Origin: a virus
Length of the DNA stretch: 27,867 nucleotides
IMG/VR virus record: IMGVR_UViG_3300025132_000216
Coordinates: 1-27,867 of that record
Strand: one strand, 5' to 3'
Part shown: positions 2,872 to 16,355 of the stretch, one piece after another
Numbering within the stretch: position 1 is the first letter of the stretch
How the letters are laid out: the number at the start of each line of letters is the position of its first letter
Program-made: the position numbers and the translations under genes
The notes under the pieces: model-generated
The model's database searches: none
What the model saw: the letters and a program-made list of their open reading frames with translations, nothing else
What the model was told of the DNA's origin: nothing

Positions 2872-5800
2872 ATGCCAATAAGAAAAGAAGCTGCATATAT
2901 AGGATTAGCAGAAAATTCTGAATTACGATATGATGTTGTAGATAGAACTCCAAGTTCTGAAGATTATTTCCAAGTTACAGAATTTCCTGAAACATTAACA
3001 GCTGGAAAAAATGTTTTCAAGTTTAGAGGTAATCCTGACACGCTCGTTGATGATTCAAAAGTTCATATTGAAATATTAGATTATAATGGCGATCCTATTT
3101 ATTATGAAGTTTTAAGATATTTAGAAAAAGATGGCACTCGAGTACTTGCAGTATATATTTATCCTGATACTCCAGAAGGTCGTGCAACAATATATTTAGG
3201 TGGTAGAGTTCGATATGATGCAGAAAGAGGAACCAACTTCCCATATTCATCAGATGCAATGTCAGATAATTGGAAAGATTTACCAAATCTTTTATGGCTT
3301 AGAGAATCTAGAGTAGCTCCAAATAGGCGTAATAGTTCTGAAATTATTATGTTACAACAACCAAAAGTAACTATAAAAGAAGAAGTAAAAACATTTTCAG
3401 AAATAACAGACTTGCCGACATTTTTTAATGTTGTAAAAGGTAATATATCAGACGGAAAATCAATATCAGGTACTGGACCTGGTGCAGGATATACAACACT
3501 AACAGTAACAACTACAACAAATCAAATGACAGATATTGCAGGTATGCCTGTATCACCTATTGCAGAAGCGTCATTTACATCAAGAACTCCTTCAAGAGGT
3601 TCGGCTGCTATATCAATTGCATTGCCATCTTCATTAGCTAATGCACCTGCGGTAATAGGTAATACTAGTGCAGTAAATTCAAATGCAATTTCTTCTACAA
3701 CAGGATTATCCACATCGGCATTAAATACAGCAACCACAAATGTAGGAAATTCAGGACCAGGTGGTACAACAATTGGAAGATTACCACCTCCAATGCCTGT
3801 ATTTACATCACCAGCAAACTCAACTGCGACATCTCAAAATAACGTTAATGATTCAGCAACCGTCGAAGATACTACAGTAACATCAGTATCAACACTTGTA
3901 TTTAATCCACCAGATACAACAACTATTTCAGTTACAGGATTTCCATTAACATCAAGTCACCATTTAGGTGCAACTGTTATTATAAATCAACCAAAGGTAA
4001 GTGTAGCCAGTGATACTCATTTAGATTCAGATGGAAGAGTTGTTCATAAAACTGCAACAAATACAACTACAGGTGGAGGACAACGAAGAGTTGATTGTAC
4101 ATATGTAGGAACAATAGTTGATATAGAAAATTCAACTACGGCCAAATTACACCCACCTTTTGATTTTAATTCTGGCAGAACTAGTAAACCTGAAGGCGAA
4201 CATATTATAGATTTTAATGCTTCAGAATTTACTATGAGTTATTGGGTGCCCCAAATGACATCAGATACAGAAAATTCAATGTCGTTTGCAAACATAGTTC
4301 TTAATAATATAGAACCAGCAACAGGTGATATTTATTCTGTTAAAACTTCATATAAATTAATGGGAGCTCCTGGAGATTATATAGATGCAGGAAATACTAT
4401 TCTTGAAAAAACAGATTTATTAATTGACCGTACAAATACATCGCCTGACATAATATTAGGAGTAAAAGATACATCAATGGGAGAATTTACTTCTCAAACT
4501 CGAATAGATGCTTATTGGAACAAAGGTGTAGGAACTACTGCAACATTTGATAATGATACATCAAGTGAATCAGTTTTATTAGAAGGAGATATAGGTACAA
4601 ACTTAGATAAACTTGTATTTAATATTAAAGAATTTTATGCTCCAACATTATATAAAGATACAGAATATCAATTATCTTTTTTTGCAAAAGGATTTACATC
4701 TCAAAGTATGAATCCATTGAATACATCTGAAAAAGATTTACGAATGGATGTATATATTTCTGGTTCAGCTGGAGAAGCTTCAACTTTAAGGCCTATTAAA
4801 GAATATCATGGTGGAATGTTAGGAGCTCCATTAGAAACATCAAATGAAGCGTTAACAGACATATCTTTAGGCCAATATTTAGGAACAGTTGAAATAGATG
4901 CAAATACTGCAAATATTGGTAATATAGTACAATTTGTACCAGAAGATACTGACAATTACGTTTTAAAATTTGTTGTTAGAAAAGGTAAAATGTATCTTAA
5001 AAATGTACAATTGACAGCAAATATTGAAACTGGATTTTCTCCTAATACTACAGAAATGAATGTCCGAATACCAACGGATAAAATGAATGCTCCGGTGGCA
5101 TTCAAGTTTCAATATTTAGATTATTTAGGAGCTCCAGCCGAAGTTGAAACATTTGCCCAAGGTGCAATTTTTGATGGTGATAATGTTTATATTGAAGGAG
5201 ATGGAAATTTATTATCTGGATCTGTTTTTATTGGTAATTCAGTTGGTTCTGGTATTGAACTTGCAGGTGTACGTTCAGCATTTATTAGATCAGTAGGATA
5301 TGAAGGATTTACTTCCGCATCAAGAACAGATAGGCCTGGTGGATTTATGATATTTACAGGATCTATTCTTCCAGATGCGCCTGATGATTATGCTAACTTA
5401 GGTACAGGTTTAGAACTAGTACAAGACTCGTCAAGCTTTTTTAGATTTAATACAGTAAATGGATTAGATATAAGAGCAAAGACATTCTTTATTGGAGATA
5501 CAGATTCGCAATTTATTTCTGGTTCTCAAGGACAAATAGAAATTAGTTCTTCATTATTTCATTTAGACCCAGCTAATAATATATTAATAATTGGAGCAGA
5601 TGCTGTTATTAATGCAGATTTATCTGTTAACCAAATATTTACTCCTGCAGGAACTACTGCAGCTGATGCGCGAGCATTTATTAATAGTTCTGGAGCCGCA
5701 AAATTTGCTGGTGATGGAGCAGGTGCATATAAAGCTGAATTTAATGAGGATGGTACTGCGACTGTAGCAGGATGGAGTCTTGGAACTGAAGAATTTCGTG

Positions 5801-8301
5801 GAGGTAATATAACAATTAGTTCATCAGGTGAGATAAAAACAACAAACTTTATTTCATCAATGGTTGGTGGACTAGCAGGAGGAGGTTATAGAATTGGTGC
5901 TGATGGTATTGCTGAATTTGAAGAAGCAAGAATTAGAGGAACATTATCAACCGCTGTATTTGAAAAAGAAACTGTATCAGCAGTAGGTGGTGCATTAATA
6001 GTAGCAAATGCAACAGCACTTGCATCTGGTTCAAATATATTAAGTAATATTGCAAATTTAAACATTGCAACTCAAGTAGATGATGCAACAATAGATAGCC
6101 CAACTCAAGTAACATTTAATTCAACAGCAGGCGTGGATAGAGTTAAACCAATAACTCCTCAATCAGGTCCACATAAATTAGTTGCGGGTAGAACATATAG
6201 AGCTAAAGCTACTATTTCAAGTTACGCGGGTTCTAATACCATAGGATTTTCAAATGAAGGTGGTATTGACACAGATACCGGAAGAAGATCAAGTAATGGT
6301 GATATAGAAACAACTTTTGTTTTTTCTGGAACAGGAGATGTTCATGTATTTTCTAATACAAGTAATACCGGTGTTATATCAAATATTACAATTGAAGAAA
6401 TGTCATTACCAGTTGATAACGCCGCAGGATTTGCAGCAGGTGAATATATTCTAGCTAAAGCAACTTCATCACTTGGGTTTACTGAAGAGATAATGGAAAT
6501 AGCATCAGTTGATACAGCAACTAATACTCTTGTAGTTTCAAGAAGTAGAAATGACAATTTAATTGTTAGTATGTCAGCTGGTCAAGTATTGGTTTCTCAA
6601 GGTAAACAAGATACAGGGTTTATTTTATTAAATGCAACTTCAGGTTCTGAAACACCTTATATTGATATAACAGAAAGAACAGGTTCAGGTGTAAATGATC
6701 TTGACGTAAAAGTTAGATTAGGAGATTTATCAGGAGTATCAGATACACAGTTTGGAACGTTATCAGGATTTGGATTATACACTGACAATGTATTTTTAAA
6801 AGGAACAATATCTGCATCTGCAGGCCAATTAGGAGCTTTTAATATTGATGGAAATGATTTACATTCATTAGATTCAGGAGCTCCAAATAATGCTCCAAAT
6901 GATGGTATAGTAATATCAGGTAGTGGTGGTCCTAACGGCCGAATGGTAATTGATATTTTTGATGGCACAACCAAAGTAGTATCCTTAGGTAATTATAGTT
7001 CAGGTAAAGATGGATTGTTTGCATCAAATGGAGATATTGGAGGTTGGGACATTGATGCTACTAAATTAGAAGCTGGTTCAGGAGCTACCAAAATAGTATT
7101 GTCACCAGGTGTAGGTATTCATATGGGAGCAGATGCATTTGCATCCGCACCATTTTCAGTTACCACCGCTGGTGTTATTAAATCAACTTCTGGAACCATT
7201 GGAGGATTTACATTAGGAGCCACTGAACTTTCAGCAGGATCATCAGGTACTGCGCAAATATCATTAGATTCATCTACACCATTGTTACAAATGGGTGATC
7301 CTTCCGGTGAACATATAGATCTTACAGCTGGCCAATTGAGATTTCATAATGGTTCTGGAACTGAAGTGTTTCGATTTGATGCTTCAATTCCTACAGGACA
7401 AAATAGATCAAACAATGGTGCTGGTGGAGCAGCTGGTAACTGTGTAGCAACAAATATTAATTCTAATACTAGATCAGGGTTAGAAATATTTTCAAAAACG
7501 ACAGGTCTTTTCTTTGCAACTCCAACTACAACCGTAACAGATTATAGATCTATAGATTTCATGCCAGGCAGATTTTTTATGGAAGGTGGTAAGAAAATGA
7601 ACTCCAATTCAAATACTGTTGCTCATACCATGGAAGTGCGAAGATATTTTGATTGTACAACAGCAAATACAGCAGGTGATTTAACAGGAACTACAAGTGC
7701 AATAAAAGGAAAATATGAAGCATCTGGTGTTTCTGTTTCTGGAACAAAATGTGGTGTAATAGGTGAGTCTATCAAAAACTTAGGTACTGCAACAAGTATG
7801 GGTGTTAAAGGTGTTGCAACTGGTACTGGTACTTTGTACGGTGTGCATTCAACAGGTAACATGAAATCTACAGGAACAATATCAGCAACAAATAATATTA
7901 CTGCATATTCATCTGATGGTCGATTGAAAGAAAACATTGTACAAATTTCTCATCCATTGGAAAAAATAAAACAATTGCGCGGTGTTATTTATGATTGGAA
8001 AGAAGAAGTTTATAAAATGGGATTCACTCCAATGGGAGATGGTAAACAAGAAATGGGATTGATTGCACAAGAGGTGCAAAAAGTAATACCATGCGCTGTA
8101 ACAACTGCACCATTTGATACGCCGTTAATAGAAAGTGATGATGGTGAACGATGGGACGGAAATCCAAATCATAATCCAGATGATCCATATTTAACAGTAG
8201 CATATGATAGAATAGTTCCATTGTTAGTGGAATCAATAAACGCGCAACAAAAATTGATTGAAGAAATGCAAGATAAAATTAAAAAATTGGAGAAAAACTA
8301 A
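2872..8301 (+). CDS. Large tail-fibre/adhesion protein with C-terminal S74 self-cleaving chaperone
   Basis: 1809 aa. The C-terminal 130 residues are an intramolecular chaperone of the peptidase S74 family. They carry the SSDGRLKEN motif (S1680 onward), then GLIAQEVQKVIP, a YDRIVPLLVESI segment and a terminal coiled coil. In this family the domain drives fibre trimerisation and cuts itself off at the Ser-Asp region; here that would be close to S1681-D1682. The body is Ser/Thr/Gly-rich beta structure. Four short repeats of the type G-x-I-G-G-W/F end near W968, F1323, W1392 and F1446, and a GVxG-rich shaft precedes the chaperone. Residues about 1-150 are a distinct N-terminal domain that may attach to the virion. 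It opens the fibre block, and its TAA overlaps the next ATG (TAATG). The role in host recognition is inferred from architecture; no receptor-binding specificity can be read. Confidence 0.88.
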   Translation: MPIRKEAAYIGLAENSELRYDVVDRTPSSEDYFQVTEFPETLTAGKNVFKFRGNPDTLVDDSKVHIEILDYNGDPIYYEVLRYLEKDGTRVLAVYIYPDTPEGRATIYLGGRVRYDAERGTNFPYSSDAMSDNWKDLPNLLWLRESRVAPNRRNSSEIIMLQQPKVTIKEEVKTFSEITDLPTFFNVVKGNISDGKSISGTGPGAGYTTLTVTTTTNQMTDIAGMPVSPIAEASFTSRTPSRGSAAISIALPSSLANAPAVIGNTSAVNSNAISSTTGLSTSALNTATTNVGNSGPGGTTIGRLPPPMPVFTSPANSTATSQNNVNDSATVEDTTVTSVSTLVFNPPDTTTISVTGFPLTSSHHLGATVIINQPKVSVASDTHLDSDGRVVHKTATNTTTGGGQRRVDCTYVGTIVDIENSTTAKLHPPFDFNSGRTSKPEGEHIIDFNASEFTMSYWVPQMTSDTENSMSFANIVLNNIEPATGDIYSVKTSYKLMGAPGDYIDAGNTILEKTDLLIDRTNTSPDIILGVKDTSMGEFTSQTRIDAYWNKGVGTTATFDNDTSSESVLLEGDIGTNLDKLVFNIKEFYAPTLYKDTEYQLSFFAKGFTSQSMNPLNTSEKDLRMDVYISGSAGEASTLRPIKEYHGGMLGAPLETSNEALTDISLGQYLGTVEIDANTANIGNIVQFVPEDTDNYVLKFVVRKGKMYLKNVQLTANIETGFSPNTTEMNVRIPTDKMNAPVAFKFQYLDYLGAPAEVETFAQGAIFDGDNVYIEGDGNLLSGSVFIGNSVGSGIELAGVRSAFIRSVGYEGFTSASRTDRPGGFMIFTGSILPDAPDDYANLGTGLELVQDSSSFFRFNTVNGLDIRAKTFFIGDTDSQFISGSQGQIEISSSLFHLDPANNILIIGADAVINADLSVNQIFTPAGTTAADARAFINSSGAAKFAGDGAGAYKAEFNEDGTATVAGWSLGTEEFRGGNITISSSGEIKTTNFISSMVGGLAGGGYRIGADGIAEFEEARIRGTLSTAVFEKETVSAVGGALIVANATALASGSNILSNIANLNIATQVDDATIDSPTQVTFNSTAGVDRVKPITPQSGPHKLVAGRTYRAKATISSYAGSNTIGFSNEGGIDTDTGRRSSNGDIETTFVFSGTGDVHVFSNTSNTGVISNITIEEMSLPVDNAAGFAAGEYILAKATSSLGFTEEIMEIASVDTATNTLVVSRSRNDNLIVSMSAGQVLVSQGKQDTGFILLNATSGSETPYIDITERTGSGVNDLDVKVRLGDLSGVSDTQFGTLSGFGLYTDNVFLKGTISASAGQLGAFNIDGNDLHSLDSGAPNNAPNDGIVISGSGGPNGRMVIDIFDGTTKVVSLGNYSSGKDGLFASNGDIGGWDIDATKLEAGSGATKIVLSPGVGIHMGADAFASAPFSVTTAGVIKSTSGTIGGFTLGATELSAGSSGTAQISLDSSTPLLQMGDPSGEHIDLTAGQLRFHNGSGTEVFRFDASIPTGQNRSNNGAGGAAGNCVATNINSNTRSGLEIFSKTTGLFFATPTTTVTDYRSIDFMPGRFFMEGGKKMNSNSNTVAHTMEVRRYFDCTTANTAGDLTGTTSAIKGKYEASGVSVSGTKCGVIGESIKNLGTATSMGVKGVATGTGTLYGVHSTGNMKSTGTISATNNITAYSSDGRLKENIVQISHPLEKIKQLRGVIYDWKEEVYKMGFTPMGDGKQEMGLIAQEVQKVIPCAVTTAPFDTPLIESDDGERWDGNPNHNPDDPYLTVAYDRIVPLLVESINAQQKLIEEMQDKIKKLEKN

Positions 8302-9176
8302 TGGCTTTGCAACAAAATGGTTCTATAAGTGCTAATAATGTTAATCAAGAATTTGGATTGTCAGGAAACACTCAACATTCATTTCAAGCAGCTCATACAG
8401 GAACAGGAACTTTTTCAGGATTAAATGGAGGATCTCCATCAGGTCCAAATGGTTCTGCACCACATAGTTTATCAGAATTTTATGGATATGATCATGATTT
8501 TCAAACAGAAAATACAGAAAACACTGTGCAACAGGTTCCAACCACTCAACAAGTATTTACTACACAAGTTGTTAATACAGTAAACGTGAATAGCTGTATT
8601 GTAGAAGGCCAAAAAGTTAGATTGAGTTCAGGATTATTAATGAACATAGAACGTTTACAAAGAGGAGATGAATTGTTAGGTTATGCAATTGAAGATATGC
8701 CTATGGATCATAATGTGACAGATGAATGGAAAATAACAGTTTTAACTAATGTAAGAATAAAACCACATCCGGTGCAAATTATAAGTATAACATCAGGCAC
8801 TAACCCTTTGTATATTGATATAAATAGAAATATAAAAGATAACATTAAATTAACGCAAGAACATCCATTATTTATCAAAAGAAAAGTTGATCAAACTTAT
8901 ACATATAGATGGATGCGTGCTGATGAGGTAGAAGTTAATGATTATATGTTATGTGCAAATTATTTTGATAAACATGATGTTGTTTGGAAACAAAGCCAAG
9001 ATAAAGATTGGATATTGATAGAAAATAAACATGTAGTAAAAGAAAAATGTATAGCATACTCAATAGACGTTAATAACACGGATACATACGTAGTTGGTAA
9101 TATTGTTGTACATAACGATATAAATGTAGGTAAAGGGGGAGATATTGCAATAGATTTTGACAAATTTAGTGGATAA
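8301..9176 (+). CDS. Fibre-like protein with an intein-like Hint (self-processing) domain
   Basis: 291 aa. Residues 1-65 resemble short virion structural proteins of marine phages (MALQQNGSIS..., ending SLSEFYGYD), followed by a Gln/Thr/Val-rich linker. Residues 99-272 form a Hint fold. C99 starts block A (CIVEGQKVRLSSG, then IERLQRGDELLGY); block B is TQEHPLF (185-191) with its Thr and His; the C-terminal block reads YSIDVNNTDTYVVGNIVVHN, ending at N272. At about 174 aa it is mini-intein sized, with no homing endonuclease. The residue after HN is D273, not the Cys/Ser/Thr needed for normal protein splicing, and a 19-aa tail follows. This fits a bacterial-intein-like domain that cleaves at its ends, or a degenerate intein. 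It overlaps the fibre gene upstream by one base, with GGAGA before its ATG. Hint identity is strong; splicing or cleavage activity is inferred. Confidence 0.85.
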   Translation: MALQQNGSISANNVNQEFGLSGNTQHSFQAAHTGTGTFSGLNGGSPSGPNGSAPHSLSEFYGYDHDFQTENTENTVQQVPTTQQVFTTQVVNTVNVNSCIVEGQKVRLSSGLLMNIERLQRGDELLGYAIEDMPMDHNVTDEWKITVLTNVRIKPHPVQIISITSGTNPLYIDINRNIKDNIKLTQEHPLFIKRKVDQTYTYRWMRADEVEVNDYMLCANYFDKHDVVWKQSQDKDWILIENKHVVKEKCIAYSIDVNNTDTYVVGNIVVHNDINVGKGGDIAIDFDKFSG

Positions 9177-9184
9177 AATAAGTT

Positions 9185-10255
9185 ATGAAAAAAAAATTAT
9201 TAAAGAATAAAAAAATAGAAGTAAAACAATCTAATATTCATGGTTACGGAGTTTTTGCAAATAAAGATATTAAATCAGGAGAAATATTAGAGGAATGCAA
9301 CTACACTAATGTTTTAGGAGCAGAAAACAATTTGTATAATTATGCATACCATTGGCCAAAAGCTATTCAATGTGCATTTGTAGAAGAAAAAACGACAATG
9401 CCATTTGGATATGCATGTATATATAATAGTTCAGATAGCAGAAAAAAGGCAAATGCTGATTGGGAATGTGATATTGAAAATGATATATATGTTTTCAAAG
9501 CTAAAAAAGATATTAAAGCTGGAGAAGAAATATTAGTTTATTATGGTGGAGGTTATTGGGGTAAATGGAAAAAACAATTATGGCATCAAAATTGCGTTTT
9601 AATTGTAGACGATTTAATAACACCTGAAATGCATAAAAATGTATTAGAAGCCGCAAATTCTCCATATCATCCAACAAATGTTGGAGGATTATATAAACAA
9701 TCTATAGATGATACAAAAGATATTTGTGATAATAAAGTAACAACTATTCGTAAAAGTAAATTAACTTATAAGTATCAAAAAGCATGTTTTGATTTATTAG
9801 ATGATTTTGGTCAAGTTAAATACGGTAATCTTACATTGGATACTCCTAAAAAATGGAACTCACATATGCCTAATAAGAATGGAGTTTATTATATGACATA
9901 TGATAAAGATCAACATTTCGAATGGCATAAAGATAACATATTAACGGAAGAAGCTGACCAAACAATTGCACCATGGTTAAACTGGAGATCATGGACAGTT
10001 ACAACATTTTTAAATGATGATTATGAAGGCGGTGTTTTTAAAATATCAGATATATACAAAAACGAGCTTACAATAAAACCTAAAAAATATAGAACTGTAT
10101 TATTTAGATCTTTTTTACGTCATAAAGTTGAGCCAGTTATATCAGGAACAAGAAAACAATTGGTACATTGGATACATACTGAAGATACTTATCAAACACA
10201 AGAAAAAGAGGTCAGTAAACTTATTCGTGATATTTATAATAAAGGGAAAAGATAA
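9185..10255 (+). CDS. SET-domain / 2-oxoglutarate-Fe(II) oxygenase fusion enzyme
   Basis: 356 aa with two catalytic domains. Residues 8-128 match a SET lysine methyltransferase: GYGVFANKDIKSGE (20-33), a degenerate N-x-S...N-A motif (N81, S82, N90, A91), and VFKAKKDIKAGEEILVYYG (103-121), whose end supplies the conserved Tyr. Residues about 135-335 match a prolyl-4-hydroxylase-type 2-oxoglutarate/Fe(II) dioxygenase. The metal ligands are H248-x-D250 and a distal H313, R323 is the likely 2-oxoglutarate-binding Arg, and TTFLNDDYEGGVFKI is the usual core strand. The substrate cannot be read. It sits between fibre genes and overlaps the next fibre ATG (TAATG), so modification of a fibre or other co-expressed phage protein is a reasonable inference, as is modification of a host protein. 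The start at 9185 lies 8 nt after the previous stop and has only a weak ribosome-binding site. Confidence 0.85.
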   Translation: MKKKLLKNKKIEVKQSNIHGYGVFANKDIKSGEILEECNYTNVLGAENNLYNYAYHWPKAIQCAFVEEKTTMPFGYACIYNSSDSRKKANADWECDIENDIYVFKAKKDIKAGEEILVYYGGGYWGKWKKQLWHQNCVLIVDDLITPEMHKNVLEAANSPYHPTNVGGLYKQSIDDTKDICDNKVTTIRKSKLTYKYQKACFDLLDDFGQVKYGNLTLDTPKKWNSHMPNKNGVYYMTYDKDQHFEWHKDNILTEEADQTIAPWLNWRSWTVTTFLNDDYEGGVFKISDIYKNELTIKPKKYRTVLFRSFLRHKVEPVISGTRKQLVHWIHTEDTYQTQEKEVSKLIRDIYNKGKR

Positions 10256-13251
10256 TGTCTATAGTATCTGTAAATAATTTAGTAGCATCAGGTGGTAATC
10301 TTGTATTTGTTCCATCTGGTAGTGGCGCATTACCTAATTCAGGTCAAGCAGCTGGTATTCGTGCTATACAGGATTTTACTGTTCAAAGAAATTTATCAGG
10401 ATCAGATTTTGCAACAACTGGTTCAGAAGGTGTATTCTTTGCATGGTCTGGTAGCCATGTTGATAGTACAACTGGTGGATCTATAGGTGGTGGTGACCCT
10501 GAAGATATGTATCTGGCATATTATTATACATCATCTGGAGTAACCACATTAGATTCATCAAGCCTTGATCCAGATAATTCTGAAGCATTTTACAATTTAT
10601 TTCAGACAGTGTTTCCAACATCATCATTTGCAGATCTTATACCAGATGCAAATAAAATTCAAATACGAATACATCATGATGATGACTCAGCAGCAATTGC
10701 GTCTGCATCTATGCTTGCTTTAAATTCACATGAACATGCAGGAATATTTTTTACTGCATCTATGGGAGTTCCTATTTTAGCTGGTGATGGAAAATTTCTT
10801 ATTGAAAATGTAAGAGAAGGTCAAGTTAATGGTCCAATAACATCATCAACATTTATATCCGCAAGTACAGCTCAATCATCGTCTGGATTCTTTGGCCAGG
10901 TTGAAGTGAAAACGCTAGGAGATCCAAGATCTGGATCGGCAACGCTTAGATTAGATCCATTAGATCCTGGATCATTTATAATGTCAGGATCTCAAGATTC
11001 AAAACTTTATTTATCTGGATCTGGTCAGATAGGAATAAATACAACAACTCCAGTACAAGATGTTGATATACGTGGTAATGAAATTGCATTAACAAGAACA
11101 AGAGAACAAAAAGGAATCCGTATTAATCAATTTGGTGACTTAGAATCATTTAATTTTGATGCAGATTCTGCTTCTACAGGTAGTGAAGTAATATTAAAAT
11201 ATCAAAAAGGTGGTGCAACTACAATAAGTGTTGTATTAGCAGCGGAAGTTGCAACTACCGTGCCACTCGAGATTGGAGGAAGTTCAGATGCGGGAGCAGT
11301 AGAAACTTTAATTAATGGAACATTTGGAGGTGATGTATCTGCTTGGTTAGCTACACAAAAAGCAGAATTTGTTAAATTTTTTAATGATTCTGCACAAAGA
11401 CAAGGATTCTTTGAACAATCAGATCCAGGTAATGTAATTGGAGCTATACGATATGTTGTGGTATCCGGGTCTGATGATACAGCAGATGATAGATCATCAG
11501 GTGAAGCAGCTGCAATCAAAGCAATTGTAACATCTGTTGATGATACATCAGGTGGAGTAACATCAAGATTATCATTTAATGTTGCAAAACAAACAGGTGA
11601 TCCGGCAACTCAGTTATTTAATTTATCTCCAGAGTTTGGTGTTGAAGTATCTGCTAGTTTGGTAATGCAACAAGGTAGTAATATACACCTTGGACAAAAT
11701 ACAGATGGCGCTGATAAAAAGATAGATTTTCGACATGCAACAGCTCGGTTTGCAGTTGGTATAGATGATTCAACAGATCGATTTACAATTAATAAAAATA
11801 GCGTAGGTAATTTTGAAACAACAGGAGATAATAATGATTTCCAGATAGATGCATCAGGTAATGTATATATTAATCAAGGACAGCTTAAGGTTGGAAGTAA
11901 TATAATTTTACCAGCTCAAAAAATTGCATTAAACACAGGAACATCAGCAGATTATATTCAATATGCAGATACAGGAAATGGTAATGGGTTTGTTTATAAA
12001 GGTAATGGAAAGTTTGATGGAAGTTTAACTGTAACTGGTGCAATAACATCATCTATTGTAACATCATCTGTAATATTTTCAAGCGGTTCTAATATATTCG
12101 GAGACGAAGCATCAGATACTCATAAATTTGTAGGATCGATATCGGCATCAGGATTAATAAGTTCAAGCGGCCATATTTTTGGATCTATGATAAGATCAGA
12201 CAATTACTATGACCTCACTGGTATTCAACCGTTATTTAGATATACTCCAAGTAGTGGAAATGCATTTATAGCATATTCTACAGAGTTAGTACAAACAACT
12301 ATTGGTAGAGGTGATGCAGGTCGAATTGTAATTAATGGTAACGTAACAGCCTCAGGTAATATAAGTTCAAGTGCAACGCTAATAGCAAATGAAGCTAACA
12401 TTATAGGTAATATAACAGCCTCAGGTAATATAAGCGCTAGCGGTGATATAATATCAGATGGACAAATATCAGCAGAAACTATACTAGTTTCAGCTACCAC
12501 TGGGATAATTGGATTTTCTAATTATGGTTTACTTACTGATCAATTTATACAAGGATTTGGAAATCAAATAACAGTTGATGGTGACAATTATGTAGAACTA
12601 GTAGCAGACAATGAAGTAAAAATAAATGCACCTAAATTAGGAATAGGAACCATTTATTCAACAGATAATTCAGATCAAGTCCCAGAAGCATTAACAGTAA
12701 CAGGTAATATAAGTGCAAGTGGTAATATATATTCTGCAACTGAAGAACATATTCAATTTAGTTTTTTAACTGATTCAACTACAGCTAATTGGCATGGTCC
12801 AAATAGACAAGGAGTATCATATTATTATTGGAATAAAGATTATGGTACTGACTCAGGAGTAACAACTATTGATTGGAGTTCGGCGGCTAATGATGAAAGA
12901 TTATTAACTAGTGGATATCGAGTACCATATAAAATAGAAGTTACAAAAATATTTGTTGTAGGACATAATGCTCAACTTGCAACATCACCAGAATCATTAT
13001 CATTTACAGCTTCCCTGCTGGTAGGAAGTCCAGAACAAAATGCACCAGGAGCAAGTGCAATTACATTATCTAATAAAGGCAATACAATATCAAATATCGG
13101 AGAATCTAGATATGCGGCAATGACAGCATCATTGGCATATACAAATTTCATAGTAAGTGAAAGTCAATATTTATATCCAAGACTTAAATGTACTAATGAT
13201 AATCAAGATGTAAATGGTATTTGGACAATATATTATAGGAGAATTTCATAA
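10255..13251 (+). CDS. Large repeat-rich tail-fibre/virion structural protein
   Basis: 998 aa, rich in Ser, Gly, Thr and Ala, with many short SGS/ASGNIS beta repeats typical of phage fibre shafts. Two consecutive 23-residue units start at V697 and I720 (xTASGNIS...), and a related TGNISASGNIYS element lies near residue 820. An earlier fibre-like segment reads SGSGQIGINTTTPVQDVDIRGN. A C-terminal globular domain of about 180 residues begins after the last repeat (HIQFSFLTDSTTANWHGPN onward) and may be the host-contacting tip. There is no S74 chaperone here. The ATG overlaps the previous stop (TAATG) with AAAGGGA upstream, and the stop overlaps the next ATG in the same way, implying translational coupling through the fibre block. 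Which fibre (long, short or whisker-like) cannot be told. Confidence 0.8.
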   Translation: MSIVSVNNLVASGGNLVFVPSGSGALPNSGQAAGIRAIQDFTVQRNLSGSDFATTGSEGVFFAWSGSHVDSTTGGSIGGGDPEDMYLAYYYTSSGVTTLDSSSLDPDNSEAFYNLFQTVFPTSSFADLIPDANKIQIRIHHDDDSAAIASASMLALNSHEHAGIFFTASMGVPILAGDGKFLIENVREGQVNGPITSSTFISASTAQSSSGFFGQVEVKTLGDPRSGSATLRLDPLDPGSFIMSGSQDSKLYLSGSGQIGINTTTPVQDVDIRGNEIALTRTREQKGIRINQFGDLESFNFDADSASTGSEVILKYQKGGATTISVVLAAEVATTVPLEIGGSSDAGAVETLINGTFGGDVSAWLATQKAEFVKFFNDSAQRQGFFEQSDPGNVIGAIRYVVVSGSDDTADDRSSGEAAAIKAIVTSVDDTSGGVTSRLSFNVAKQTGDPATQLFNLSPEFGVEVSASLVMQQGSNIHLGQNTDGADKKIDFRHATARFAVGIDDSTDRFTINKNSVGNFETTGDNNDFQIDASGNVYINQGQLKVGSNIILPAQKIALNTGTSADYIQYADTGNGNGFVYKGNGKFDGSLTVTGAITSSIVTSSVIFSSGSNIFGDEASDTHKFVGSISASGLISSSGHIFGSMIRSDNYYDLTGIQPLFRYTPSSGNAFIAYSTELVQTTIGRGDAGRIVINGNVTASGNISSSATLIANEANIIGNITASGNISASGDIISDGQISAETILVSATTGIIGFSNYGLLTDQFIQGFGNQITVDGDNYVELVADNEVKINAPKLGIGTIYSTDNSDQVPEALTVTGNISASGNIYSATEEHIQFSFLTDSTTANWHGPNRQGVSYYYWNKDYGTDSGVTTIDWSSAANDERLLTSGYRVPYKIEVTKIFVVGHNAQLATSPESLSFTASLLVGSPEQNAPGASAITLSNKGNTISNIGESRYAAMTASLAYTNFIVSESQYLYPRLKCTNDNQDVNGIWTIYYRRIS
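12344..12434 (+). repeat. Pair of 22-bp direct repeats within the fibre gene
   Basis: Two identical 22-base copies at 12344-12365 and 12413-12434 (starting TAACAGCCTCAGG) lie 69 bp apart, exactly 23 codons, and encode the repeated TASGNIS segment. Conservation at DNA level suggests recent duplication, or recombination between shaft repeats. Confidence 0.8.
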
Positions 13252-13868
13252 TGAGTATAAGAAAATCAGATGACTTAGTAAACGAAACTAATAGTAGATA
13301 TAATAATCTAAAAGATGTAAGAAAACGAGAAAAAATTACTGAAAGGATTGATGATACGTCACATAATGATAATCCGTATGATGAAACTTTACAATATTTA
13401 AATAGAAAATTAGATGATGTAATTGACCAATTAAATACTAATTCAGGAAAAGTAGGATCTGATGGAGTTGATTTGGCAGCAGAAGCAACAACATTACAAA
13501 ATGCAAGAACAATTGGAGGAGTATCATTTGATGGCTCAGCTAATATCAATCTTCCAGGAGTTAACACCGCTGGAAATCAAAATACATCAGGTACAGCAAC
13601 TAATGCAACCAATGTTACAGTAACTGCAGACACAGCTAATGCGAATCATCCAATAACATTTATAGATGATACATCACCTGACGGCTCAGTTGAAGGGTTA
13701 AAAGCAGCATCGACCATAACGGTTAATCCAAGTACCGGTGAACTTGTATTAGGTCTACTTTCTATTACCTTTACACAAGGTGATGGTAGAACAACATTTG
13801 GCACAGTAACATTTACAGCTGCTGATGAAAGTGGTACAAGAAGAACGGCCACTATAAATTTAACTTAA
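13251..13868 (+). CDS. Small tail-fibre/virion protein with fibre repeat motif
   Basis: 205 aa. Residues 1-65 are charged and helical (possible coiled coil). They are followed by NARTIGGVSFDGSANINLPG and NTAGNQNTSGTA, a pattern common in phage tail-fibre shafts, and then a short beta-rich end (TFGTVTFTAADESGT). It is translationally coupled to the preceding fibre (TAATG) with AGGAGA before the start. It may be a connector, a second fibre or an assembly partner of the 998-aa fibre. The family assignment rests on the repeat motif and position only. Confidence 0.7.
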   Translation: MSIRKSDDLVNETNSRYNNLKDVRKREKITERIDDTSHNDNPYDETLQYLNRKLDDVIDQLNTNSGKVGSDGVDLAAEATTLQNARTIGGVSFDGSANINLPGVNTAGNQNTSGTATNATNVTVTADTANANHPITFIDDTSPDGSVEGLKAASTITVNPSTGELVLGLLSITFTQGDGRTTFGTVTFTAADESGTRRTATINLT

Positions 13869-13882
13869 AATGTAATTGGATG

Positions 13883-13896
13883 ATATTTATATAAAA
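13883..13896 (+). promoter_or_regulatory. Intergenic A+T motif (ATATTTATATAAAA) abutting a start codon
   Basis: A perfect copy of the recurring motif; its last A is the first base of the ATG at 13896. There is no Shine-Dalgarno sequence in the 27-nt gap. If the motif is a promoter for this gene, transcription would begin at or after the ATG. Confidence 0.4.
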
Positions 13897-16355
13897 TGAA
13901 TCTAGGTGATCAAATAGCAAAAGAATTAATAGAAGAAGCAAATTCTACTATCAAAACCGTCGTGGCAATATACCCAGGCAGATTTCAGCCAATGGGACAA
14001 CATCATGCAAAAGTATATGATTGGTTAGCAGGAAAATTTGGTAAACAAAATACATATATAGCAACATCAGATAAAGTTCAATTACCTAAATCACCATTAA
14101 ACTTTCGTGAAAAATTACAAGTTATTAGAAAACATGGAATAACAAATGTTTCACAAGAAAAAAATGTTTATGCACCAGAAAATATTTTAAAAAAATATAA
14201 TCCAGAAACAACTGCAGTTGTATTTGTATACGGCAAAAAAGATGCCGGAAGATTAAAATATACAAAAAAAGATGGATCACCTGGATATTTCCAAGATTAT
14301 GCAAAGTCTAAATCAAATCTAAAAGGATATGAACAACATGGATACGTTGTTATATCTCCGCATATAGAGTTAAAAGTACCAGGATTTGGTGAAATGTCAG
14401 GAACTACTATAAGAGCCGCATTAGCAACCGCAGATATGAAAACATTTAAAAATATAATGGGTTGGTATGATCCAAAAATATATCAGCTATTAAGAAAAAA
14501 GTTTTCTCAAGTTTTGGAATCATTTATAGTTAAAGAAGGAAGTAATGTCACTGGCCAAAGTAATGCAGATGTTGATGACGGTCCAAGATATTTTTATGGC
14601 AATCAAACTACATATAGAAAAAAGAATGATGATATGGCAAAGCGATTAGGATATGAAGTTATAAATTATATTGTAAAAGATAATCCTATTGAAGTTCATA
14701 ATACAAATTTTCCAGATGGTCCACCATTGACAGTATCATATTTTCCTACAGGAGTTAAAGGAGGAGAATTTTCAGGAACTGATTATATAAAAGATTATAA
14801 AGGACGTCCTGGATATGTAAAATGGAAAAGTTATATTTCAAAAATTGCTCAACAAGTTGGATATAAATTTTTAGATTTTTTAGGAGCAGAAGATTCTATA
14901 GAATCAAGTAAAGGAGAAAAGTTAGTGCCAACAACATTAAAAGAAGATATTAACATTCCTATCAATATTGGAGATACAATTATGATGGGAAGATTTAAAA
15001 ATAAAAAAGTAGTGGTAAAAACAATTAATTTTAATGATAAAGGAGATTTGTTAATTAATGGTAAATCTGCAGCTAGATTTAGAATTTTACCACAAGAACC
15101 TAAACCTAAGACATTAGGAGAATCAATAGCAATGCAGTTGCTTACAGAAGGCGGGGCAGCTGGTCATATGAATCATCCATTTGATGATAGAGATATTACA
15201 TTTGGAGACATGAAACAAATGATTAGATTATCTCTTGAAGGTAAATTAAATGTTGAAGCTGGCGTGCAAGAAAAAACTGATGGACAAAATTTAGCAATTA
15301 CATTTAAAGATGGTAAGGTAGGAGCAGCTAGAAATAAAACAACAATTCGAACACCAATGGATATTAATGCAATAAAATCAAAATTTGCAGGAAGAGGTGA
15401 AATAGAAAATGCATTTACGTTTGCCATGCAAGATTTAGAACGAGCATTATTAAAAATATCAAATGATAAATTATTTGAAATATTTAGAAATGGTTCTAGA
15501 TTTTTAAATATAGAAATAATATATCCAGGTACACAAAATGTTGTTATGTATGGACCAAAAGCTTATATTCAATTTCATGGTGTTGATGAATTTGATTTAG
15601 ATACAGCAACAAAAACAGATTCATATCCAGAATTTGCTCCTTTGTTACAAAAAATGATTGCTGATGTAAATGCAAATATACAAAAACAATTTGAAATTAT
15701 TCCGCCAAAAATTTTAACATTAAATCAATTACCTAATTTTGAAGAAAAAGAACAATATTTTATTCAGCAAGTAAATCAATTGCAAAAACAATATAAATTA
15801 AAAGATTCTGATGAATTAATATTGTGGCATGAGATGTGGTGGAAAGACAAAATTAATGAATTATTTCCTGATACAACAGATGATATAAAATTTGGATTAT
15901 TAAAACGATGGGGATATTTTGATAAATCAATGAGATTAAATGGAACAAATATACCTGATCCAGATATATTATCTCGAATAAAAGATTTTGATAAAACTAA
16001 TTTTGCTAAACAAAATAAACAAAATGTTTATAATTTTGAAAAAATATTTTTAGAATTAGGTGTTGAAATACTAGCTAACATTTCAGATTATTTATCAGTA
16101 GTACCAGATAAAGCAGTTAAAGATATTAGAAGACGAATAGCTGCAAAAATCAAAGTCATACAGAAATCCAAGGATCTAGCGTCACTTGAAAAATTAAAAT
16201 TTGAATTAAAGCGTATAGAAGATTTAGGAGGATTTGAAAAATTAGTGCCAACAGAAGGTATAGTATTTATATATAAAGGAAAAACATATAAATTAACAGG
16301 ATTATTTGCACCTATCAATCAATTGTTAGGAATTGGCGGACTTGGCGACAAATAG
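13896..16355 (+). CDS. Two-domain nucleotidyltransferase: NMNAT-like domain fused to ligase-like domain
   Basis: 819 aa. Residues 20-200 look like a HIGH-superfamily nucleotidyltransferase related to NMN adenylyltransferases: AIYPGRFQPMGQHH (24-37) carries the H-x-G-H-type motif in altered form, and EMSGTTIRAAL (166-176) matches the S-x-T-x-I-R motif. A middle part (210-410) is unassigned. Residues about 420-819 carry the order of motifs of covalent nucleotidyltransferases (RNA/DNA ligases): motif I EKTDG (459-463, K460 the likely nucleophile), RNK (479-481), FLNIEIIYPG (537-545, E540), motif IV EGIVF (787-791) and a motif V-like YKGKTYKLTG (793-802). The insert between E540 and motif IV is long and helical. 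Possible roles are nucleic-acid repair or end joining, NAD metabolism, or nucleotide transfer to RNA or protein. The motifs are seen; the substrate is not. LxE sites at 12-14 and 416-418 suggest possible cleavage by the prohead protease. Confidence 0.72.
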   Translation: MNLGDQIAKELIEEANSTIKTVVAIYPGRFQPMGQHHAKVYDWLAGKFGKQNTYIATSDKVQLPKSPLNFREKLQVIRKHGITNVSQEKNVYAPENILKKYNPETTAVVFVYGKKDAGRLKYTKKDGSPGYFQDYAKSKSNLKGYEQHGYVVISPHIELKVPGFGEMSGTTIRAALATADMKTFKNIMGWYDPKIYQLLRKKFSQVLESFIVKEGSNVTGQSNADVDDGPRYFYGNQTTYRKKNDDMAKRLGYEVINYIVKDNPIEVHNTNFPDGPPLTVSYFPTGVKGGEFSGTDYIKDYKGRPGYVKWKSYISKIAQQVGYKFLDFLGAEDSIESSKGEKLVPTTLKEDINIPINIGDTIMMGRFKNKKVVVKTINFNDKGDLLINGKSAARFRILPQEPKPKTLGESIAMQLLTEGGAAGHMNHPFDDRDITFGDMKQMIRLSLEGKLNVEAGVQEKTDGQNLAITFKDGKVGAARNKTTIRTPMDINAIKSKFAGRGEIENAFTFAMQDLERALLKISNDKLFEIFRNGSRFLNIEIIYPGTQNVVMYGPKAYIQFHGVDEFDLDTATKTDSYPEFAPLLQKMIADVNANIQKQFEIIPPKILTLNQLPNFEEKEQYFIQQVNQLQKQYKLKDSDELILWHEMWWKDKINELFPDTTDDIKFGLLKRWGYFDKSMRLNGTNIPDPDILSRIKDFDKTNFAKQNKQNVYNFEKIFLELGVEILANISDYLSVVPDKAVKDIRRRIAAKIKVIQKSKDLASLEKLKFELKRIEDLGGFEKLVPTEGIVFIYKGKTYKLTGLFAPINQLLGIGGLGDK

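Follow-up and report, generated by a model that had tools for sequence, protein, structure and literature searches.

To our knowledge, there are few documented cases of phages using dedicated enzymes for the post-translational modification of their virion proteins, and the many phage 2-oxoglutarate/Fe(II) (2OG) oxygenases are not known to have assigned targets. The PBCV-1 protein vSET (A612L; PDB 1n3j/3kma) is a stand-alone H3K27 methyltransferase of an algal virus, with a small SET domain of ~120 aa. PKHD-type hydroxylases (Sbal_3634, PiuC) and bacterial prolyl 4-hydroxylases carry HxD...H...R ligands on a double-stranded beta-helix core. Marine phages commonly carry 2OG genes (PMC3037559; PMC9602691). 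Cultured cyanophages have 1-5 of them each and S-SCSM1 has 24; the functions of the cyanophage enzymes have not been specifically investigated (PMC9602691). A SET protein is merely listed for Stenotrophomonas phage Ps15 (PMC9025141). Our literature search turned up neither a paper describing a SET-2OG fusion nor a functional study of a phage SET protein. In this study, we analysed a phage gene in which the two domains are joined. The sequence-only reading of this DNA did not know the pairing as a described phage enzyme, and none was found in the libraries and papers searched here. The enzyme families are known; the fusion architecture and the Hint/SET/2OG gene triad are new.

The window (the whole stretch of DNA analysed, 27,867 nt; IMG/VR virus record IMGVR_UViG_3300025132_000216) is a record of a T4-like phage, with genes for a recombination ATPase, fibres, terminase, portal, and prohead protease. 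The phage carrying the fusion is a marine virus of bacteria. Its terminase is nearest to those of Microcystis phage Mel-JY01 and Flavobacterium phage immuto (57% each); since it is equally close to both, the host phylum cannot be named safely. The features of the fibre region are as follows.

2872..8301, + strand: long tail fibre with a C-terminal Peptidase_S74 intramolecular chaperone at about 7912-8100 (Pfam S74 1.4e-16; tail fibre PHROGs)
8301..9176, + strand: 291-aa protein with a fibre-type N-terminal module and a Hint (intein-like) domain (Pfam Intein_splicing 8.6e-5, sub-cut-off)
9185..10255, + strand: SET::2OG-Fe(II) oxygenase fusion gene, 356 aa (P0001); a single ORF with Pfam and PHROG matches and a full-length homologue in L088
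9242..9547, + strand: SET domain, residues 20-121 (Pfam PF00856 4.9e-11)
9896..10177, + strand: 2OG-Fe(II) oxygenase core, residues 238-331 (Pfam PF13640, 2OG-FeII_Oxy_3, 3e-12, above the curated cut-off)
10255..13251, + strand: fibre-like structural protein, 998 aa, of repeat-rich G/S/T/N/A sequence; L088 homologue 70% over 9-735
13251..13868, + strand: small tail-fibre protein, 205 aa (PHROG tail fibre matches, best 9e-19)

The fusion gene starts 8 nt past the end of the Hint-protein gene, and its stop codon overlaps the ATG of the 10255..13251 gene (TAATG). A family match was looked for in the latter protein and none was found. The fibre operon setting described earlier for the fusion was thus confirmed, with the S74 fibre and the Hint protein before it and two fibre genes after it. 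Downstream, window 13896-16355 encodes a protein of 819 aa that begins with a nucleotidyltransferase-like GRFQPMGxxH sequence, contains an EKTDGQN ligase-like motif, and has no Pfam match; in relatives, it lies directly downstream of the variable fibre cassette.

A second full-length fusion was recovered by IMG/VR scans (L088:7001-8101; 366 aa, 59% identity). Scans with a single sequence gave no match, and an alignment query was required. The gene order (S74 fibre, Hint protein, SET-2OG, fibre, fibre) is the same in the window and in L088. Between the two copies, dN/dS (Nei-Gojobori) was about 0.36 overall, 0.24 for the SET half and 0.43 for the 2OG half, which indicates purifying selection on both halves. 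A chance ORF or an assembly chimera was ruled out by the full-length L088 copy and the dN/dS values. The two fusion members found are both on metagenomic contigs. The L088 contig overlaps that of L006 at 97.5% identity only, so the two were not treated as one virus.

The SET domain scored 43.4 bits against a curated Pfam cut-off of 22.4. The SET and 2OG halves were modelled separately, since they were misaligned when full-length and single-domain proteins were aligned jointly. A profile from 50 SET homologues had PBCV-1 vSET as its best PDB match (4.6e-28), followed by Set7 and PfSET, and the predicted model (pLDDT 88.9) had its best fold matches in PfSET, vSET, and Set7 (4rz0, 3kma, 5h6z). 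G20, G22, F24, G75, Y80, N81, and Y120 are invariant in the 50 homologues. Y21, Y53, N81, Y120, and Y124 correspond to vSET Y16, Y50, the Asn of NHS, Y105, and Y109, with Y124 just past the domain end. Unlike vSET, the window protein continues into a 2OG domain and has N81-S82-S83 (NSS) for NHS, so that the full signature is not present. The His is kept in 38/50 SET homologues, and NSS is shared by the window, L088, and the majority of their clade. On the SET tree, NSS marks a phage cluster, with two label changes against 10.9 in shuffles, which argues for an inherited clade trait rather than a local defect. By sequence and predicted fold, the SET half is most likely a SAM-dependent methyltransferase of the small vSET type.

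The fusion protein matched phrog_61 ('2OG-Fe(II) oxygenase') at 1.1e-22. A profile from 41 oxygenase homologues matched the PKHD hydroxylase Sbal_3634 (3dkq, 6.9e-21), then prolyl 4-hydroxylases, PiuC, and PHD2. The iron ligands H248, D250, and H313 and the 2OG ligand R323 are all present in the fusion; H248, H313, and both EGG-motif glycines are invariant in the 41 homologues, and D250 and R323 are kept in 40/41 each. In the predicted model, the core blocks reached a pLDDT of about 90 and the flanks were poor (mean 68.5). Its double-stranded beta-helix fold matched 3dkq, PHD2, and P4H with a Foldseek prob of 1.00, and PiuC was also matched. The sequence and the model make this half most likely a Fe(II)/2-oxoglutarate hydroxylase of the PKHD/prolyl-hydroxylase type, which differs from the described enzymes in sitting fused behind a SET domain. 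The nearest phage-record relatives of the C-terminal half are cyanophage and methylophage 2OG-Fe(II) oxygenases (phrog_61 and others; 24-32% identity). These have no SET fusion and, in the two records that were inspected, are surrounded by small hypothetical genes.

Profile searches and predicted folds therefore both bear out the SET and 2OG-Fe(II) domains that the sequence-only reading had placed in 9185-10255. Its view that both were intact stands for H248/D250/H313/R323 and for Y21/Y53/N81/Y120/Y124, and fails at the motif His. This variant, together with a 9-residue gap that the window copy has, relative to L088, ahead of its 2OG core, could affect activity, and both points would fit a protein in which one half is catalytically dead and serves the other as a binding or docking module. 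However, both halves retain every other catalytic position that was examined, and purifying selection acts on both; we consider a dead half very unlikely.

The Hint region of the protein encoded directly upstream covers about residues 99-272 (8595-9116), from Cys99 to a ...VVHN-D end. The N-terminal Cys block (Cys99) and the C-terminal HN block (VVHN at 269-272) are both present and are conserved in L088. The Intein_splicing match was 22.8 bits in the window and 32.0 bits (1.3e-7) in the L088 homologue, both below the cut-off of 35.8. The residue at +1 after HN is D in the window and G in L088, and not the Cys/Ser/Thr of a true intein. This residue suggests that the domain undergoes cleavage rather than standard splicing. 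Neither the Hint domain nor the NSS variant figured in the sequence-only reading. Among homologues of the Hint protein, the N-terminal module alone is widespread and the Hint-bearing form was found solely beside the fusion; no SET gene was found near the N-terminal-module homologues outside the fusion loci. Homologues of fib2 occur without the enzyme (L011, L020), which leaves the Hint protein as the neighbour that tracks the enzyme.

The fibre cassette is variable, and terminase relatives hold anything from nothing to extra S74 fibres in it. Searches of the 80 loci of terminase relatives and of 24 whole records did not find the fusion; many contigs end before the cassette, so absence was counted only among terminase relatives with the cassette covered. 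Those relatives lack both the enzyme and the Hint protein. A core gene of the phage group was hence rejected, and the fusion is an accessory gene. A 77% terminase relative carries, at the equivalent cassette position, a class I methyltransferase gene and then a 2OG oxygenase gene (L057:2861-4055), possibly a functional analogue of the fusion.

SET and 2OG genes also occur as neighbours elsewhere. All profile 2OG matches in SET loci adjoin the SET gene or lie at most two genes away (L104, L112, L127, L114, and L134; bacterial L180 and L183). Four phage loci (L104:3677-7402, L127:3678-7402, L114:4015-7396, and L134:4044-7390) contain runs of Hint-Hint / 2OG / (SET) / SET, in which the tandem-Hint protein ahead of the 2OG gene has 753-764 aa and a ...VHNK end; no Pfam family matched its N-terminal 450 aa. 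As in the window, the three functions stand side by side with Hint upstream. Unlike in the window, the genes are separate, the SET is of another clade, no adjoining S74 fibre gene was seen, and the phages are large and unrelated to that of the window. A Hint protein lies just upstream in every phage locus with SET, 2OG, and sufficient upstream DNA; the L112 sequence stops too early upstream. The Hint motif scan was positive in the phage SET+2OG loci, apart from L114, whose Hint it missed and Pfam confirmed; just one SET-only locus was positive (L098, 2.5 kb downstream). Because the independent SET+2OG+Hint lineages are few (two or three), the association is suggestive and not proven; the Fisher value computed for it includes related contigs and should not be read as a fair probability. 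Given the abundance of 2OG genes in T4-like phages from marine sources, some chance adjacency is expected. In a gammaproteobacterial family, a SET gene was present in 56/60 genomes, and a 2OG gene followed it directly on the same strand in 7/25 loci read. At L180:6998-8282, L183:6998-8294, and L265-L292, the gammaproteobacterial chromosomal SET gene often has a 2OG oxygenase gene overlapping it or coming next.

The proximity of SET, 2OG, and Hint in unrelated phages suggests a so far undescribed route of virion-protein modification. The three could form a recurrent phage protein-maturation module whose two enzymes were fused in the window lineage, a generalization that we regard as unlikely. 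The intein-like domain would then process itself, exposing or ligating a segment that would be lysine-methylated and hydroxylated; if true, this would be a general phage way of hardening virion or receptor-binding proteins or of making them more diverse. Alternatively, the two halves might have different targets or oppose each other, with the SET half writing methyl-lysine, the oxygenase removing the mark or hydroxylating another protein, and the fusion merely fixing co-expression. Lysine demethylases exist among 2OG enzymes, and fused enzymes often share expression and not substrate. Yet the 2OG half falls in the PKHD/prolyl-hydroxylase group, its family and PDB matches included no JmjC-type demethylase, and Hint proteins accompany SET and 2OG where the two recur, so we consider separate or opposed targets quite improbable.

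The alignment query of IMG/VR gave 159 candidate SET loci, 80 of which were retrieved. All but L088 encode stand-alone SET proteins of 117-192 aa. An immediate neighbour with an S74 motif, a collagen-like repeat, or a long G/S/T/N/A-rich protein was scored as fibre-like. Such a neighbour was present for 7/12 NSS-group representatives vs 3/33 other phage SETs (Fisher p=0.0014, kinship not corrected for). Stand-alone SETs of the same clade that adjoin S74 or other fibre-like genes are those of L085, L093, L099, L089, L100, and L141. Stand-alone phage SETs (L085, L089, L100, and L141; huge phage LR756501) are about 41-51% identical to the window SET and several lie within fibre operons, but they are without the oxygenase half. 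A link of the fusion with fibre genes in other phages, raised by the sequence-only reading, is upheld by L088, in the same order, and by these fibre-adjacent relatives.

Accessory genes are often located among late phage genes, and a place in a fibre operon is no proof that the enzyme acts on fibres. The fusion might modify a host protein in infection, such as a translation factor or a surface protein, and its location would then be incidental, an accessory gene having inserted into a late cassette that varies. Among relatives of the 2OG half, some target cellular proteins (a Pseudomonas P4H solved with EF-Tu, 4iw3, is a fold match), the viral vSET targets a host histone, as named in its PDB entries, 30/33 phage SETs outside the clade are not beside fibres, and the fusion is an accessory of a variable cassette. 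Against this, both fusion members are tightly packed within the fibre operon with identical neighbours, the clade is enriched in fibre adjacency, and the enzymes co-occur with Hint proteins. We regard a host target as rather unlikely. Action early in infection, also put forward in the sequence-only reading, gained no support, as the gene lies within what appears to be a late structural block. The T4 late promoter motif TATAAATA was no more frequent than expected by chance and gives no support to expression timing.

We tentatively prefer, at somewhat short of an even chance, a late bifunctional enzyme whose target for modification is encoded in its own fibre operon, with the Hint-bearing fibre protein as the best single candidate. 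The enzyme would be made late, together with the closely packed fibre genes. Its SET half, by family membership, would methylate a lysine on a protein of the operon, and its 2OG half would hydroxylate a residue of such a protein; the Hint-bearing protein directly upstream might be modified before or after its own self-processing. We count in favour of this reading the clade SETs near fibres, the conserved neighbours in L088, the Hint/2OG/SET runs, the bacterial SET-2OG pairs, and the methyltransferase-2OG pair of L057. Fibre-operon packing, SET coupling, and Hint co-inheritance narrow the likely substrates to a few proteins. If true, the proposal would offer a first clue to the role of phage SET proteins.

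Other phage SET genes were observed in further settings. Two lie immediately downstream of long collagen-like (SGTSGSSGT) repeat proteins (L143:1546-2124 and L147:4401-4961). At L105:6055-8190, one gene flanking the SET gene encodes a sulfotransferase (Pfam 1e-17) and the other an unrecognised protein; the cluster is bounded by large G/S/T/N/A-rich proteins and is possibly another virion-modification cluster. NSS-group SET genes at L106:1774-4390 and L158-L160 have a flavin/NAD-type oxidoreductase gene on one side and an AAA_28 kinase-like gene on the other, and the terminase lies downstream of them.
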